Shown here: positions 13,140 to 35,411 of the stretch, piece after piece
Layout of the letters: each line of letters starts with the position of its first letter
Position numbering within the stretch: the first letter of the stretch is position 1
The notes under the pieces: model-generated
Seen by the model: only the letters and a program-made list of their open reading frames with translations
Databases searched by the model: none
Told to the model about the DNA's origin: nothing
Source of the DNA: a virus
DNA length: 35,411 nt
Virus record (IMG/VR): IMGVR_UViG_3300050821_017732
Location: 1-35,411 of that record
Reading direction: 5' to 3' (one strand)
Made by a program: the position numbers and the translations under genes

Positions 13140-14062
13140 ACCCGTAGTACGCTGACCCCAGGGAAAGCTTCCTTCGCCGGGCAGAGAGAGGTGATGATGG
13201 TGCAGAGCATGAGGTCGTGGCGTCGAGTCACGAGGCCTTGCAGTTTGGAGAGGCCCCAGCGCTCTTTCATCAGCGCGCTGTCGACGCCGTCGATGAGCAA
13301 GACATCCACCTTGTGCAGATCCGTGATGGGGGAGTCCTTCTTCGTCGCCGCGGCGTCCTTGGCTTCGCTCACTAGCGTCGGGGCGTGCACCGATTGGTAA
13401 GAGGCGGAGCCAAAGTGAGCGAGGGTGTTCCTGAACAGCGCAGCGCCGTACTCGCGCGCGAGCTTGCCTTCGATCAAGAGCTCGCTGCCGCGCGGCGCAG
13501 ACTTCCCCTCTCCCGTGTCCATGAACACGTTGAACGCGTCGTCGATCTCTTTTCGTACCGGAGCGAGCGTCTTCAGAGTTACCGAGCTGAGACGCGCATC
13601 GAGCCCGTAGCTCTGGAGGCGGCGTCGAGCTCGGAAGGCCTTGTAGCGGGCGCAGTCCTTGTACTGCTCACGGGGAACATTGTCCGTAATACGGAGACGC
13701 ACCTGTAGGCCCGCAGGCACTCGGTCACGGGTGTCGTCGCAGGCAGCTCCGTCCTCTGGACACTGGGCGCACTCCCGCAAGCGAGTGTTGAGGCCGGTCC
13801 AAAAGCTTTCGGTGTCCTGGAGCAAGAAAGCGAGAAGCTCGGTTTCCGGTCCCAGGAGAATTTCTTCACTCAAACTTGCGATGGCGCTTCGGGCGCGCGG
13901 GGCGCACGAGATCAACCACTTCGCCGCCCCGCCCGCCTCCTCCATTGCCTTCCGGAACGCTACTTGGTTGGCGTCCCTCAAGGCTCGAAACGTCGCCTCC
14001 ATGCCCAAGATGGGGCTCTCCAGTAGATTGCTTTCCTTGGACTCCGGATCGTCGTCGCTCAT
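13136..14062 (-). CDS. DnaC/DnaI-like helicase loader with degenerate Walker A
   Basis: 308 residues. The middle has a cysteine cluster (CAQCPEDGAAC near residue 98, later a single DCARY cysteine) followed by YGLDARLSSVTLKTL, matching the N-terminal zinc region and linker of DnaC/DnaI-type loaders. The C-terminal third shows a Walker B-like VDVLLIDGVD and a sensor-1-like CTIITSLCP. The Walker A position (LLIEGKLAREYG) lacks the GxxGxGKT loop, so ATP binding may be lost or altered. A loader places the replicative helicase on DNA; the partner would be the DnaB encoded at 1821-3332. Its first 197 bases overlap the end of the upstream replication gene in another frame. An unrelated AAA+ identity is possible. 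Confidence 0.6.
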   Translation of the reverse strand: MSDDDPESKESNLLESPILGMEATFRALRDANQVAFRKAMEEAGGAAKWLISCAPRARSAIASLSEEILLGPETELLAFLLQDTESFWTGLNTRLRECAQCPEDGAACDDTRDRVPAGLQVRLRITDNVPREQYKDCARYKAFRARRRLQSYGLDARLSSVTLKTLAPVRKEIDDAFNVFMDTGEGKSAPRGSELLIEGKLAREYGAALFRNTLAHFGSASYQSVHAPTLVSEAKDAAATKKDSPITDLHKVDVLLIDGVDSALMKERWGLSKLQGLVTRRHDLMLCTIITSLCPAKEAFPGVSVLRV

Positions 14063-14825
14063 GACTATTTTCCCCTTTCTGTACGCTGGACTCGCTAACG
14101 CCTTCCCTAACGCCTTGCCGTACGCCTTCCCCTACACCATTCGTACTCCCTTCGGAAGGCGTGGGGGAGGGACGTAGAAGAGAAGAGAAGAGAAGAGAAG
14201 AGTTATCTCTATCTGATCCGTCTTCTTCTCTTTCTGAGAGAGACATAGATCTATCTCTCTCTCCCAGATCGGAAGAGGCAGCAGGAGAGGAAGGTCTCCT
14301 GGAAGGAGTGGGTGACGCCTTAGGGGAAGGCGTCTGGCTCCGCTGCTCGAGACTCCGGTCGAAGGACGTGTAGGTTTCCGGAAAACCCCTTTTGATTCCG
14401 CCAAATAGCTTCTGGAACACCGGCATACAGGGCTGACTTTTCGCGGCTAGCAGCCGCAAAGACGCTATGTGCTCGAATTTGATGTCGATGTCTGGAAGAT
14501 CGGCCCACTCCCGTCGCCAGCCGACGACGATGTTCGGGTTGGGGGTGATGTGGTGCTTCCAGACCTTGGGCAAACGGATGACCTCCTCGGTCTCGTCGAA
14601 ACACATGATTCCCGACGCGAGGATGCCCTCAAACGCGCTTTCGACCTCCAGAGGCTTCCACGGCCTCATGAATTTGTAGAACGTCGCAGGCGAGCCCCGG
14701 TAGAGCCCGGGGAGCAATTTCACTTGTGGCCCGCAGATGATGCAATTCAGCAGCATTTTTCCACAGTGGCCAAGGTCGACGACTTTCTTGCTGTCCCAGA
14801 ATTTGGGCGAGAGGAATCCCGACAT
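13866..14825 (-). CDS. DnaD-like replisome organiser / replication initiation protein
   Basis: 319 residues. The N-terminal 140 residues have the organisation of phage replisome organisers and DnaD-type winged-helix proteins: SPKFWDSKKVVDLG, then LLPGLYRGS, an EVESAFEGILASGIMCFDE helix-strand unit, and IRLPKVWKHH. Residues from about 165 to 300 are low complexity (serine, proline, glutamate, glycine), partly encoded by a pentanucleotide repeat and by a second imperfect repeat (GVGEGVRQGVREGV). The C-terminus is basic (RPARPKRHRKFE). It likely binds the phage origin and recruits the loader and helicase. The last 197 bases overlap the loader gene in a different frame. Confidence 0.65.
   Translation of the reverse strand: MSGFLSPKFWDSKKVVDLGHCGKMLLNCIICGPQVKLLPGLYRGSPATFYKFMRPWKPLEVESAFEGILASGIMCFDETEEVIRLPKVWKHHITPNPNIVVGWRREWADLPDIDIKFEHIASLRLLAAKSQPCMPVFQKLFGGIKRGFPETYTSFDRSLEQRSQTPSPKASPTPSRRPSSPAASSDLGERDRSMSLSEREEDGSDRDNSSLLFSSLLRPSPTPSEGSTNGVGEGVRQGVREGVSESSVQKGENSHERRRSGVQGKQSTGEPHLGHGGDVSSLEGRQPSSVPEGNGGGGRGGEVVDLVRPARPKRHRKFE
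14176..14202. repeat. Pentanucleotide microsatellite (AGAAG)5
   Basis: Five perfect tandem AGAAG units plus two bases, CTTCT on the coding strand, inside the replisome-organiser gene. They encode the LLFSSLL segment of its low-complexity linker. Because the unit is not a multiple of three, gain or loss of one unit would shift the reading frame. In the frame reached by adding one unit a TAG follows at 14132-14134, truncating the protein before the loader start. Confidence 0.9.
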
Positions 14826-26729: not shown

Positions 26730-27124
26730 TGCAATTCTGTCAAGGTCACTGGGACAAATTGAAGACTGAGATCCACTCGCTCGGTCTCGGCCAATTCATT
26801 GCCGGCTCTGAAGAGGAGATGGGCAGAAAGCTCAGCGCGCAAGCCGACGCCCCGGGCGGCGCTCCCAGCAAGAACACCTTCGATCCCCTGATGAATGCCT
26901 TCATGGCTATCACGCAGCGCGCGCTCGAGGTCGGCGGCATCGGTCTGATGATCGAGCTTCAGACCCCGCCCAATCCGGAGTGCCCGCTGTGCTTCATGCA
27001 GCAAGTCCACGAGCAGGGCTGCAAGATCGAGGGGTGCACGTTCACGTACGAGGCTTGGATCGGCTACGCCGCCAAAGACCAGTTGGACTACGCCAAGTCG
27101 ATGGGGATCGTGGGGGAAGCATGA
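26729..27124 (+). CDS. Phage protein with CQxHW start and CPxC zinc site
   Basis: 131 residues starting MQFCQGHWDKLKTEI, one-base overlap with the previous stop. The opening FCQGHWDKL, the FDPLMNAFMAITQRALEVGG helix, and the C-terminal CPLCFMQ...C...CTFTYEAWIGYAAKDQL pattern recur in small phage proteins I have seen as hypothetical. The cysteines and histidines probably bind zinc. Function unknown. Confidence 0.7.
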   Translation: MQFCQGHWDKLKTEIHSLGLGQFIAGSEEEMGRKLSAQADAPGGAPSKNTFDPLMNAFMAITQRALEVGGIGLMIELQTPPNPECPLCFMQQVHEQGCKIEGCTFTYEAWIGYAAKDQLDYAKSMGIVGEA

Positions 27125-27417
27125 TCGACATGGAGCTGTTCGAGCTGATGAAAGTGACGCTGAAGGAGGTGCTGCACGCAAAACTCCGAGGCTCACCAGA
27201 CAAGTGGGCGCAGCCAGTGCCGAGAGAAGTCGCCGACCGCGCTTTCGACTTGGCGCTTGCTGCCAAGCAACGCCTCGAGCAGCACCGTCCGAGCGAGCCT
27301 ATTCATGATCCCCGCGCGCCCACACTGCATCCGCCACCGATTACGAATCGATCATGCGCTCGTTGCTGCATGCGGGCGCTCCACAACAGCGACTTCTGCA
27401 AAGACCACCAACCGTGA
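27121..27417 (+). CDS. Hypothetical protein with C-terminal zinc knuckle
   Basis: 98 residues starting MIDMELFELMKVTLKEV, fixed by ATGA overlap. The first half is helical; the C-terminus has CARCCMRALHNSDFCKDH, a compact Cys/His site like that in 22284-22496. A proline-rich linker joins the two parts. Function unknown. Confidence 0.6.
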   Translation: MIDMELFELMKVTLKEVLHAKLRGSPDKWAQPVPREVADRAFDLALAAKQRLEQHRPSEPIHDPRAPTLHPPPITNRSCARCCMRALHNSDFCKDHQP

Positions 27418-27710
27418 TCTTCTGGTACCTCAATGCGCTCCGCACGCTGATCGTTACGCTCTTCTACATGCTGAGCATCGGTCAGCCCTTCGCCCCCTGC
27501 GAGCGAGTCTGGGATAACGACGCCGGCCCGGTCCCGCCCGGTAAAACTTACGAAGAGTGGTACGGCAGCTTCGCGCTCATGTGCCCCAACCGAGCCCACG
27601 ACGGTCGCACGGTGATCTTTTGCTACGGCTCTAACTGCTGGCCCTCGCTTTTGACTCCCCACTTCCCCTTCGCTACAAAGGCCCGATGGATCTCCTCACC
27701 GCCACCCTGA
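27414..27710 (+). CDS. Small protein with N-terminal hydrophobic segment (GTG start)
   Basis: 98 residues from a GTG in a GTGA overlap. It begins with a hydrophobic, aromatic segment (IFWYLNALRTLIVTLFYMLS) that may be a membrane anchor or signal. A polar domain with several cysteines follows (PCERVW, LMCPNR, FCYGSNCW). The last 25 bases overlap the next gene. Role unknown. Confidence 0.55.
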   Translation: MIFWYLNALRTLIVTLFYMLSIGQPFAPCERVWDNDAGPVPPGKTYEEWYGSFALMCPNRAHDGRTVIFCYGSNCWPSLLTPHFPFATKARWISSPPP

Positions 27711-28279
27711 ACGCTCTCATGCTGATGACTCCGCACAAGACGGACACCGAGTCGCTCGATGAGCGCCGAGCTCGGATGACGATGATCGCCGAAGCGATCC
27801 AGTCCGCGACGAAGCACGCTGCCTGCGTCAACGCCGAAGACGACTGCAAACTCATCCTCTCCGACCGTCGGCTCGCGACGGCGCTCCTGCTCGGTAAAGG
27901 CCACTTCGAATCCGACTTCGCCCAGTACGTGCACGAGGGTCACTGTGAAGAAGGCCCCGTCGGCGCCCGCTGCGACTCCGACCGCAACGGCATCGCTCGC
28001 GCGCACGGCCCCTGGCAGCAATGGCGCCTGTCGGTCTACCCCCAAGCCGACTGGGACCACATGCAGGGCGCCACGCCCGAAGCCACGACGCTTGCCGCCG
28101 AGCACGCGCTCGAGCTCCTGGCAGGCACCCTCCACCGCTGCCCCGACCAGTACCCCGGCGACAACATCGCCCAAGCCATCGCGGGCTTCGCCGGCACCTG
28201 CCTCACCATGAAGCCGGAGAAGGTGCAGCGGCAGGCAGCCTACGTGAGGAAGATTTTGAACACCCTACCTGCGGAGTGA
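27686..28279 (+). CDS. Possible lysozyme-like protein (virion or lysis hydrolase candidate)
   Basis: 197 residues. The core TALLLGKGHFESDFAQYVHEG (about 65-85) resembles the catalytic-glutamate helix of lysozyme/transglycosylase folds, with E75 as the candidate acid. GPWQQWRL (about 108-115) fits the downstream G-x-x-Q segment, and C-terminal helices (AAEHALELLAGTL, AIAGFAGTC) fit the all-helical lobe. Cysteines at about 87, 96, 152 and 172 could pair outside the cell. The N-terminus has no obvious signal peptide. Identity is suggested by pattern only; it is the last gene before the structured element at 28.3 kb. Confidence 0.5.
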   Translation: MDLLTATLNALMLMTPHKTDTESLDERRARMTMIAEAIQSATKHAACVNAEDDCKLILSDRRLATALLLGKGHFESDFAQYVHEGHCEEGPVGARCDSDRNGIARAHGPWQQWRLSVYPQADWDHMQGATPEATTLAAEHALELLAGTLHRCPDQYPGDNIAQAIAGFAGTCLTMKPEKVQRQAAYVRKILNTLPAE

Positions 28280-28288
28280 GGAGAAACG

Positions 28289-28465
28289 ACCCAGAGCTAG
28301 TTCCTGGATCCGGCGCACGCCTCGCAAGAGGCGGTGTCACAAAAGGCACGGGATGTACAAGGCGATAGTGGCTCCGTGCGGTTGGGTAATAAGACGCGGC
28401 TTAGGTCTCGCAAATCCCAAATCCGGCCGCTGCGACACCGCCAGATCCCGGGACTAGCTCTGGGT
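28289..28465 (+). ncRNA. Candidate structured RNA closed by a 22-base inverted repeat
   Basis: The ends, 28289-28310 and 28444-28465, pair over 22 positions with 20 Watson-Crick pairs, one G-U and one mismatch. Inside are a perfect 9-base pair GGCGGTGTC/GACACCGCC (28330-28338 with 28434-28442), a perfect hairpin CGCCTC-GCAA-GAGGCG with a GNRA-type loop (28318-28333) that competes with part of that stem, GCACGGG/TCCGTGC with one G-U (28346-28352 with 28373-28379), and TTGGG/CCCAA (28382-28386 with 28416-28420). The strand is assumed from the flanking genes. Alternatives are a miniature inverted-repeat element or a DNA-level replication or packaging site. I match it to no known RNA class. Confidence 0.6.
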
Positions 28466-28487
28466 AGCCGACCCCTCCCTCAGAAAC

Positions 28488-28516
28488 TTTCGCTCTAGAC
28501 GGGGCTCGGTTATCCT
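28488..28516 (+). promoter_or_regulatory. Promoter-like sequence before the structural genes
   Basis: TTTCGCTC (28488-28495), 15 bases, then TATCCT (28511-28516), ten bases before the ATG. The same layout (TTTCCACTC, 15 bases, TAGGCT) precedes the fibre-like gene at 32128, and a related one precedes the collagen-like gene. The -10-like TATCCT leaves a very short leader, so the exact start of transcription is uncertain. Confidence 0.4.
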
Positions 28517-28526
28517 TCCAGGGACG

Positions 28527-28988
28527 ATGTCCCTCCAAGCGATCCCGGGCTACGAGCCGGCCGGCTACGGCCAATACGGGGATGACACCCCGCCCGCCGC
28601 CGCAGATCCCGCCGCCGCCCCACCCGCCCAGGCTGTCCCCTCCCAGACGCCGCCCTTCGTGATGCCGGCGCCGACCGCCGTCACGCCGCTCCCCATCCCG
28701 CCCGTCCCCACCACCGATCCGAGCGCCCAGACCCGCGCCGGCGTCGCGATCGTGATTGCAGGAGCCGGCGTCGGCGCAGGCGCCCTGCTCGGCGGCCTGT
28801 GGGGCGCTGGCAGCGGCCTGCTCTTCTCAGGCGCTCTCCTCAACGCCTGGCGCGCCCGCACGCTCTGGTCTTCGCCCGTGCCGACCGATCGCAGCGAGGC
28901 CATCAAGACGACGGTGATGTCGGTTGTCGGCATCGCCGCGGGCGGCTATCTCGGCTACCGCGCTCACCAAAGCAAGAAGGACGAGTGA
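28527..28988 (+). CDS. Proline/alanine-rich protein with glycine-zipper membrane helices
   Basis: 153 residues. Residues 1-65 are low complexity, proline- and alanine-rich (PPAAADPAAAPPAQAVPSQ). Residues about 71-105 are a glycine- and alanine-rich hydrophobic region (VAIVIAGAGVGAGALLGGLW) and a second such segment is near 131-144 (VVGIAAGGYLGYR). Glycine-zipper helices are common in phage injected or membrane-penetrating proteins and in small virion proteins. It is the first gene after the promoter-like sequence at 28488. Identity as a virion protein is inference. Confidence 0.6.
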   Translation: MSLQAIPGYEPAGYGQYGDDTPPAAADPAAAPPAQAVPSQTPPFVMPAPTAVTPLPIPPVPTTDPSAQTRAGVAIVIAGAGVGAGALLGGLWGAGSGLLFSGALLNAWRARTLWSSPVPTDRSEAIKTTVMSVVGIAAGGYLGYRAHQSKKDE

Positions 28989-32866: not shown

Positions 32867-35411
32867 ATGACCAACCGCGCCAAGCTTGGCGCTTCCGCCC
32901 GAGGTACCGCGCGAATTCCGCCGGGCAGCGGCGGCACGGGCATGCAGGGAGCCCAAGGCTTCCAGGGCGCGCAAGGCGCTCAAGGCACGCAGGGAGCCGG
33001 CTTCCAGGGTGCGCAAGGCTTTCAGGGGAACCAAGGCGCCCAAGGCTTCCAAGGCACGCAAGGCGCGGGTTTCCAAGGCGCCCAGGGGTTCCAAGGCAAC
33101 CAAGGCGCGACCGGCACCCAGGGCTCTCAAGGCACCGGCTCGCAAGGCGCGCAAGGCTTCCAAGGCAACCAGGGCGCAACGGGCACCCAGGGCAGCGCCG
33201 GCGCTCAAGGCAGCCAAGGAGCCACCGGCGCCCAAGGCACGACCGGTGCTCAGGGCCAGCAGGGCAGCCAAGGCTCGCAGGGCAGCACGGGCGCCCAAGG
33301 CACGACCGGCGCGCAGGGCGCGACCGGCACGCAGGGCGCTCAGGGCTTTCAGGGCGCGCAAGGGTTTCAAGGCACGGCCGGCACCGCCGGCTCGCAGGGC
33401 TCCCAAGGCGCGCAGGGAGCGCAGGGGAACACCGGCGCGCAGGGCACAACCGGTGCGCAAGGCACGCAGGGTAACCAAGGCGCGCAGGGCGCCACCGGGA
33501 CGCAAGGCACGACCGGCGCTCAGGGCAACCAAGGCGCGCAGGGAGCAACGGGCACGCAAGGCGGCCAAGGCTTTCAGGGCGCGACCGGCGCGCAAGGAGC
33601 GCAGGGCTTTCAAGGCGCGCAGGGCTTTCAAGGACAAGCCGCCTTCAGTCCCGCGATCAGTGCTGGCACTCAGATCGCGACAAGCGGCACCGTCGTCTTC
33701 GCGAACGCCAACGGCCTCAGCTTCGGAATGGTGGGCTCGAGCCAAGTCACGGCGAGCTACACCGTCCCGAACACCGCCGGCTTGCTGTCGTTCGTTAACT
33801 TCTCGGCGGGCACGACGAGCGGCAATCTCTCCGCGGTTACCTTCGGCAATGCCGGCGGCGTGAGCTTCGGACTTGCGGGCGGCGTCATCACGGGAGCCGC
33901 CCCCGCGCAATCGAATCAATCGATCGGCTTCTTTGGGCTCGGCAACACGACGCTCAGCTCGAGCGGCACCTTCGATGCGCGCTCGATGGAGATTTCCGGC
34001 GCTGGGATCATCTCGGTTGGCATCACGGGCGGCACGCTCGTCATCAGTGCGACGGGCGGCGGAGGCGGCGGCAACGGCAGCATCAACTTCTCGGCCGGCA
34101 CGACCAGCGCGTCACTCTCTGCGATCACCTTCGGCAACGCCAACAACGTCTCCTTCGGTCTTGATTCTCGCGGCACGATGACCGCGAGCGTCAACCCGAT
34201 CCTCAGCTTCTTCGCCGTATCGAACACCACCCTCGGCACGAGCGGGTCGTTCGATATGAGGAGCGTCACGTTCGCGGGCGCGGGCGATCTGTCGATCGGG
34301 ATCAGTAACGGCTCGGTCGTCGTGAGCGGCGTGATGGGAGCGCAAGGCTTCCAAGGCGCGCAGGGGTTTCAGGGTAACCAAGGGTTTCAGGGAGCGACCG
34401 GAGCGCAGGGCTTTCAAGGCAACCAGGGAAATCAGGGAAACCAAGGCGCGCAGGGCGCGACGGGCCTACAAGGCAACCAAGGCGCCCAGGGTGCAAACGG
34501 CGCGCAGGGCAATCAGGGCGCGCAAGGCGCGACCGGAGCCCAGGGCTTTCAAGGCGACATCGGCGCGCAAGGCGCGCAGGGCTTTCAGGGTGCGACGGGC
34601 CTGCAAGGCGCGCAGGGTTTCCAAGGCGCGACCGGCGCACAGGGCTTCCAAGGCAACCAGGGCAACCAAGGAAATCAAGGCGCGCAGGGCGCGACGGGCT
34701 TGCAGGGCAACCAGGGCGCGCAGGGCGCGACCGGAGCACAAGGAAATCAAGGCAACCAGGGCGCGACCGGTCTGCAGGGCGCGCAGGGTTTCCAGGGAGC
34801 GACGGGCGCGCAGGGCTTTCAAGGCAACCAGGGGAACCAGGGCAACCAAGGGGCGCAGGGCGCGACCGGCGTGCAGGGAGCGCAAGGCTTCCAAGGCGCG
34901 ACGGGCCTGCAGGGTAACCAAGGCAACCAGGGAGCCCAAGGCGCGACGGGCGCGCAAGGGCTCCAGGGCTTTCAGGGCGCGCAAGGCAATCAGGGCTTCC
35001 AAGGCTTTCAGGGAGCGCAGGGCTTCCAAGGCAACCCCGCCATCATGCCGGCCATCAGCGCCGGCACCCAGCTCGCAACGAGCGGCACTGTTGTCTTCGT
35101 CAACTCGAACGGCCTTGCCTTCGGCATGTCGGGCTCGAGCCAGATCACGGGCTCGTACACCGTCCCGAACACCGCCGGGCTGCTCTCCTTCGTCAACTTC
35201 TCAGCTGGCACGACGAGCGGCAACCTCTCCGCCGTCACGTTCGACAACGCGGGCGGCGTCTCCTTCGGGCTCAACGGCGGCGTCATCACCGGCGTTGCTC
35301 CCGCACAGTCCAATCAGACGCTCGCCTTCTTCGCGACCGGCAACACCACCGACAACACGAGCGCGACGTTCGATGCGCGCAGCATCACGCTCAATGGTGC
35401 GCTCGGGATCT
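32867..35411 (+). CDS. Collagen-like tail-fibre protein, partial (runs off the right edge)
   Basis: At least 848 residues, open to the window edge with no stop. Start MTNRAKLGASARG, then a stalk of Gly-X-Y triplets (about residues 26-257) in which Y is nearly always glutamine or threonine (GAQ, GFQ, GNQ, GAT, GTQ). A beta-rich module follows (about 258-490) with segments such as GTVVFANANGLSFGM and SAGTTSGNLSAVTFGNAGG, typical of phage fibre repeats. A second stalk (about 491-722) and a second beta module (from about 723) repeat the plan. It would form a trimeric rod with host-binding domains. The stalks contain no proline and one charged residue. Antisense frames over this repeat are artefacts. 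Confidence 0.88.
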   Translation, partial: MTNRAKLGASARGTARIPPGSGGTGMQGAQGFQGAQGAQGTQGAGFQGAQGFQGNQGAQGFQGTQGAGFQGAQGFQGNQGATGTQGSQGTGSQGAQGFQGNQGATGTQGSAGAQGSQGATGAQGTTGAQGQQGSQGSQGSTGAQGTTGAQGATGTQGAQGFQGAQGFQGTAGTAGSQGSQGAQGAQGNTGAQGTTGAQGTQGNQGAQGATGTQGTTGAQGNQGAQGATGTQGGQGFQGATGAQGAQGFQGAQGFQGQAAFSPAISAGTQIATSGTVVFANANGLSFGMVGSSQVTASYTVPNTAGLLSFVNFSAGTTSGNLSAVTFGNAGGVSFGLAGGVITGAAPAQSNQSIGFFGLGNTTLSSSGTFDARSMEISGAGIISVGITGGTLVISATGGGGGGNGSINFSAGTTSASLSAITFGNANNVSFGLDSRGTMTASVNPILSFFAVSNTTLGTSGSFDMRSVTFAGAGDLSIGISNGSVVVSGVMGAQGFQGAQGFQGNQGFQGATGAQGFQGNQGNQGNQGAQGATGLQGNQGAQGANGAQGNQGAQGATGAQGFQGDIGAQGAQGFQGATGLQGAQGFQGATGAQGFQGNQGNQGNQGAQGATGLQGNQGAQGATGAQGNQGNQGATGLQGAQGFQGATGAQGFQGNQGNQGNQGAQGATGVQGAQGFQGATGLQGNQGNQGAQGATGAQGLQGFQGAQGNQGFQGFQGAQGFQGNPAIMPAISAGTQLATSGTVVFVNSNGLAFGMSGSSQITGSYTVPNTAGLLSFVNFSAGTTSGNLSAVTFDNAGGVSFGLNGGVITGVAPAQSNQTLAFFATGNTTDNTSATFDARSITLNGALGI
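32942..33637 (+). repeat. Collagen-like Gly-X-Gln/Thr stalk, first copy
   Basis: Runs of a 9-base unit close to GGCGCNCAAGG repeated through about 700 bases, encoding GXQ and GXT triplets. Two short interruptions (GTQ-GA-GFQ) break the triplet register near its N-terminal end. Codon-level identity between units suggests expansion by slippage or unequal recombination. Confidence 0.9.
33638..34338 (+). repeat. Beta-rich fibre module, first copy
   Basis: About 230 residues of strand-rich sequence with the repeated phrase SAGTTSxxLSAxTFGNAxxVSFGL, itself present twice inside the module. It is followed directly by the second stalk. The first half is closely similar, at base and residue level, to the module starting at 35035. 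Confidence 0.85.
34339..35034 (+). repeat. Collagen-like Gly-X-Gln/Thr stalk, second copy
   Basis: A second run of GXQ/GXT triplets of about the same length as the first (about 232 residues each). Blocks such as GFQGNQGNQGNQGAQGAT recur in this copy. It ends GNP, then passes into the next beta module. Confidence 0.9.
35035..35411 (+). repeat. Beta-rich fibre module, second copy (partial)
   Basis: From ISAGTQLATSGTVVF onward this matches the module at 33638 almost line for line, with only scattered differences. The window ends inside it, so further modules may follow. Confidence 0.85.

Follow-up and report, generated by a model that had tools for sequence, protein, structure and literature searches.

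A possible MITE-like inverted-repeat insertion in a variable slot between two operons of an uncultured phage

What is the nature of a 177-nt segment, closed by long inverted arms, that lies between two operons of a phage? The segment (positions 28289-28465, 61% GC) is found in the virus record IMGVR_UViG_3300050821_017732, the whole of which, 35,411 bases and probably a genome fragment, is the window of our analysis, and it follows the stop codon of one ORF (27686-28279) and precedes another ORF, which starts at 28527. An earlier note, made from the sequence alone, had offered two descriptions of it, a structured RNA, which it preferred, and an inverted-repeat element. Our folding statistics and the presence or absence of the segment in related phages support the second description better than the first, and the reading to which we assign a probability of about one half is that the segment is a MITE-like, non-autonomous and lineage-specific insertion of about 180-200 bp, placed after the upstream stop codon and before the promoter-like block of the operon that follows.

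The anatomy of the segment is much as it had first been read. Its outer arms (28289-28310 and 28444-28465) do pair over 22 bases, with 20 Watson-Crick pairs, one G-U pair and one mismatch, and in our repeat search the match extended further, giving a left arm, ACCCAGAGCTAGTTCCTGGATCCGGCG (28289-28315), and a right arm, CGCCAGATCCCGGGACTAGCTCTGGGT (28439-28465), of 27 nt that are 89% complementary and enclose a core of 123 nt (28316-28438; all features of the segment and its flanks are on the + strand). The arms have an inner continuation, in which 28330-28341 pairs with 28431-28442 over 12 nt at 92%, and it is here that the perfect 9-base stem of the earlier note, GGCGGTGTC/GACACCGCC, is located (28330-28338/28434-28442). 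Direct reading also shows the 6-bp hairpin with a GCAA loop, CGCCTC-GCAA-GAGGCG (28318-28333), which is present in the minimum-free-energy fold, has the bases GGCG (28330-28333) in common with the 9-base stem, and forms part of an 18-nt stretch that interrupts the left arm when it is compared with the right. Between the extended arms we counted four differences by direct reading, three transitions and one transversion, a pattern compatible both with an inverted repeat in decay and with wobble pairs.

How unusual is an inverted repeat of this strength in these phages? In a systematic scan of 287 kb, which took in the window phage together with three related contigs in full and two others in part, the 27-nt arms were the top inverted repeat, and they were the only one of this score in the window, where nothing else passed the threshold. 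The arms scored 18 versus a best score of 14 in 30 shuffles of their 800-nt context.

A further question is whether there is a folded RNA inside these arms. The check proposed in the earlier note, a fold of 28280-28480 against shuffled controls, gave -95.6 kcal/mol with a z of -4.8, and the segment itself (28289-28465) reached a z of about -6.6 in the sense orientation relative to dinucleotide shuffles, none of which folded as well, and of -5.9 in the antisense orientation, so that both strands fold about alike. Once the outer arms were removed, z fell to -1.4 (sense) and -1.9 (antisense) for the interior (28316-28438), for which 20 of 200 and 26 of 300 shuffles were equally good, and the core thus folds no better than shuffles on either strand; with the GCAA hairpin removed as well, z was -0.1 (sense) and -1.2 (antisense), and the innermost part was at chance. 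In the converse experiment, in which the arms were kept and the interior was shuffled, the fold was equal or better in 61 of 300 trials. Because the significance of the fold resides in the arms, the segment amounts to a long inverted repeat whose core is ordinary, and the two additional hairpins and the competing-fold switch that had been proposed within the arms are at chance level. A multi-helix folded RNA is not supported by the folding statistics.

Comparison with related phages provides a separate line of evidence. The closest relative, G001 (IMGVR_UViG_3300050821_020271), has a collinear genome at about 85% nucleotide identity and an upstream protein that is 93% identical at the amino acid level, and it lacks the segment. 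Only about 8 bases separate its upstream stop codon from the CCCTCAGAAACTTTCG promoter-like block, its flanks align with those of the window up to the last codons of the upstream gene and again from CCTCAGAAAC on, and at this slot the window is longer than G001 by about 190 bases. The slot of G003 is likewise empty, that of G002 holds an unrelated 80-aa ORF, and that of G004 (locus L061) has over 1 kb with other, unrelated ORFs. Neither a DNA search nor a covariance model of the segment found it elsewhere in G001-G004. As the slot is empty in two of these phages and filled with unrelated ORFs in the other two, parsimony favors an insertion in the lineage of the window, and from these alignments the segment looks like an insertion of about 180-200 bp, specific to this lineage, into a slot whose contents vary. 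The slot as a whole spans 28280-28476, between the upstream gene and the promoter-like block, and has equivalents at loci L004, L005, L006 and L061.

On the left of the slot is the upstream gene (27686-28279), which encodes a protein of 197 aa that is conserved in the relatives; it had been called possibly lysozyme-like, and this stays a guess because the protein has no Pfam or PHROGs match and its low-confidence model has no fold match. On the right, the promoter that the earlier note placed downstream of the segment corresponds to a promoter-like block, CCCTCAGAAACTTTCG...GGTTATCCTTCC (28477-28521), which is conserved in the relatives and begins about 10 bases past the end of the insertion. 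In the form AAACTTTCG-N(16)-GGTTATCCT this block occurs exactly once per contig in the window, G001, G002 and G003, always directly before the downstream operon, and it is also recognizable at L061, in a fifth related phage. The first downstream gene (28527-28988, 153 aa) has conserved counterparts in four relatives, with a more distant one in a fifth, and belongs to no family.

If the segment is an insertion, of what kind is it? MITEs are short, carry no transposase gene and end in inverted repeats of about 10-50 bp; they are present or absent at otherwise homologous sites, occur in multiple copies, have ends in common with an autonomous insertion sequence and are flanked by flush target-site duplications. 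The segment has 27-nt arms at 89%, its length is 177-200 bp, in none of the six frames is there an ORF of sufficient length to encode a transposase, and its site is empty in G001 and G003. Taken with the unrelated occupants of the slot in other relatives and the chance-level interior, these features are what support an insertion. Counting against a MITE are the GC content, the lack of a second copy or of an identified transposase, and the position of the candidate target-site duplication. The latter consists of two copies of CGACCC, of which the left (28287-28292) overlaps the left arm and the right (28469-28474) is 7 nt out of register, so that they are not symmetrically flush with the arms, and 4.5% of shuffles have a shared 6-mer of this kind by chance.

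The segment is single-copy in the window, and scattered copies with target-site duplications, the outcome that the earlier note had named as the mark of a transposable MITE, were not found in viral contigs or 84,980 prokaryote genomes by pattern, nor by the covariance model, built from one sequence, in about 1,930 genomes from six phyla. Paired exact ends gave no match in either the viral contigs or the 84,980 genomes; when a 16-mer from a single end was used, there were 4 matches in the viral contigs and 29 in the genomes, all isolated, and none of the 29 had a paired end (with up to 2 mismatches) within 3 kb. A 17-mer arm pattern matched an unrelated sequence, and a looser pair pattern gave 71 chance matches with neither extended complementarity nor a model score. 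No DNA homologues were detected among INPHARED phages or PLSDB plasmids, and a search for an origin elsewhere in the same phage returned only chance matches of 12-14 nt. These searches have limited power, as they used exact patterns and a one-sequence model and may have missed the host genome, and near-identical records may be omitted from them. The mobile-element reading consequently rests on anatomy and on presence/absence, and we use the term MITE-like, rather than MITE, because multiple copies were looked for and not found.

There are known elements that the segment resembles. QMITE2 of Coxiella has terminal inverted repeats of 23-29, a core of 113-145 and direct repeats of 7-9, dimensions close to the arms of 27, core of 123 and candidate direct repeats of 6 reported here (PMC10969869). 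Both QMITE2 and the Correia/NEMIS elements of Neisseria are, like the segment, about 180-200 bp long and intergenic, and both have a long stem-loop transcript, as the segment would (PMC10969869, PMC2229807). Unlike them, the segment has no second copy that we could find, its direct repeats are not flush, it is GC-rich whereas MITEs are typically AT-rich (PMC10969869), it is in a phage, and no related insertion sequence was found. ERIC/IRU and YPAL/RU-2 are similarly imperfect palindromes inserted in non-coding DNA beside genes, and YPAL, like the segment, is not A+T-rich and is known from empty versus filled sites, although these families, compared here by description, are repeated in enterobacteria (PMC2229807). 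With the reservation about multiple copies, the segment probably belongs broadly with the palindromic intergenic insertion elements.

How might such an insertion have come about and what might it do? As a non-autonomous element it would have arrived when a transposase, acting in trans on its ends, mobilized it, and it may have been tolerated at the slot because neither a gene nor the promoter was interrupted. Read-through of the upstream operon would then produce a transcript that ends in a very stable long hairpin, and palindromic elements related to MITEs do fold as long stem-loops in transcripts (PMC2229807). The segment is possibly transcribed as the hairpin tail of the upstream operon, where by analogy with proposals for ERIC/NEMIS-type elements the hairpin could protect or cut the upstream mRNA.

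Alternatively, the segment could be a free-standing phage RNA (an sRNA, decoy or regulator) with a terminal stem and a GNRA-capped three-way junction, carried in the slot as accessory cargo, a reading that we regard as doubtful. Cargo is to be expected in the slot since other relatives carry small ORFs there, the closing stem is strong, and it is only the sense strand, on which the flanking genes also lie, that has the GNRA-type loop. However, the interior folds at chance level and both strands fold alike, no sigma-70-like promoter was found directly upstream, and, in line with the statement of the earlier note that it could match the segment to no known class, a gathering-threshold Rfam search of the whole window had no match for the segment; an E-value search of the region returned only a miRNA model, far below its threshold. 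As the searched collections returned no homologue in which covariation could be read, a functional phage RNA keeps a low probability. That the segment represents a new small class of such RNAs, accessory cargo of a hypervariable inter-operon slot that would act in trans on the host, is more improbable still. GOLLD and ROOL are large ornate non-coding RNAs that are structured and in some cases phage-borne, but they are far larger than the segment and are conserved by covariation. No tRNA or tmRNA was found.

It is also unlikely that the segment serves the upstream operon as a cis-acting 3'-end hairpin, an mRNA stabilizer or processing site that would insulate that operon from the next promoter. 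Its position between a stop codon and the conserved promoter-like block and the high stability of its stem are consistent with this role, whereas no T-run follows the stem and no intrinsic terminator was called here on the + strand, and 177 nt far exceeds the size needed. Furthermore, such a structure is not required, as neither G001 nor G003 has one.

A still weaker case can be made for a small cargo gene, either contained in the segment or surviving there as a remnant, as the segment has a 34-codon ATG frame (28354-28458; MYKAIVAPCGW...) preceded by AAGG, and comparable small ORFs are found in the slot of G002 and G004. We consider this very improbable: no similar protein was found in phages and none in Pfam, a 34-codon frame is unremarkable by chance, and the inverted arms would be left unexplained. 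Inspection by eye showed none of the expected core sequences of an integron attC site, a retron msr/msd or a group II domain V, and these candidates were set aside on that basis. Packaging RNA of the phi29 type, at about 170 nt with a closed 5'/3' helix, is like the segment in size and closure, and the earlier note had listed a packaging or assembly RNA among its suggestions; that DNA and model searches found the segment neither in the near relative G001 nor in G003 contradicts this, makes an essential packaging or assembly RNA unlikely and led us to reject the phi29-like candidate, which the Rfam search did not match either.

Should the MITE-like insertion prove correct, this would be an instance of such an element captured in the genome of a phage whose near relative has the corresponding site empty, at a slot occupied by small ORFs in other relatives. 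The general interest of the segment is modest; the slot, which lies between the upstream stop codon and a promoter-like block shared by five related phages, usefully marks where this uncultured phage group takes up accessory DNA.

Other repeats and folds were observed in these genomes. In G002 (L021:16669-16749) a further inverted repeat, with arms of 24 nt (CTCACGCCAGGAGTGGCCCCGCGA) and about 80 nt in all, is unrelated to the segment and seemingly comes just after an ORF. At 32900-35400 of the window there are long low-complexity repeat ORFs, collagen-like by eye, and this region is repetitive between the window phage and G001. The strongest local fold in a coarse genome scan (60-base steps) was at 14100-14340, inside a 319-aa ORF of the - strand (13866-14825), and has GAGAAG runs, palindromes and repeated CGCCTTCCC. 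By eye this ORF, which has no Pfam or PHROGs match, possibly encodes a replisome organizer with a Ser-rich linker, and 14100-14340 is a candidate lambda-like replication origin within this putative initiator gene. The syntenic region of G001 (26941-27303) is also a fold outlier, with a different sequence and an inverted repeat of its own, ATCGATACCCTACCGAT/ATCGATAGGGTATCGAT.
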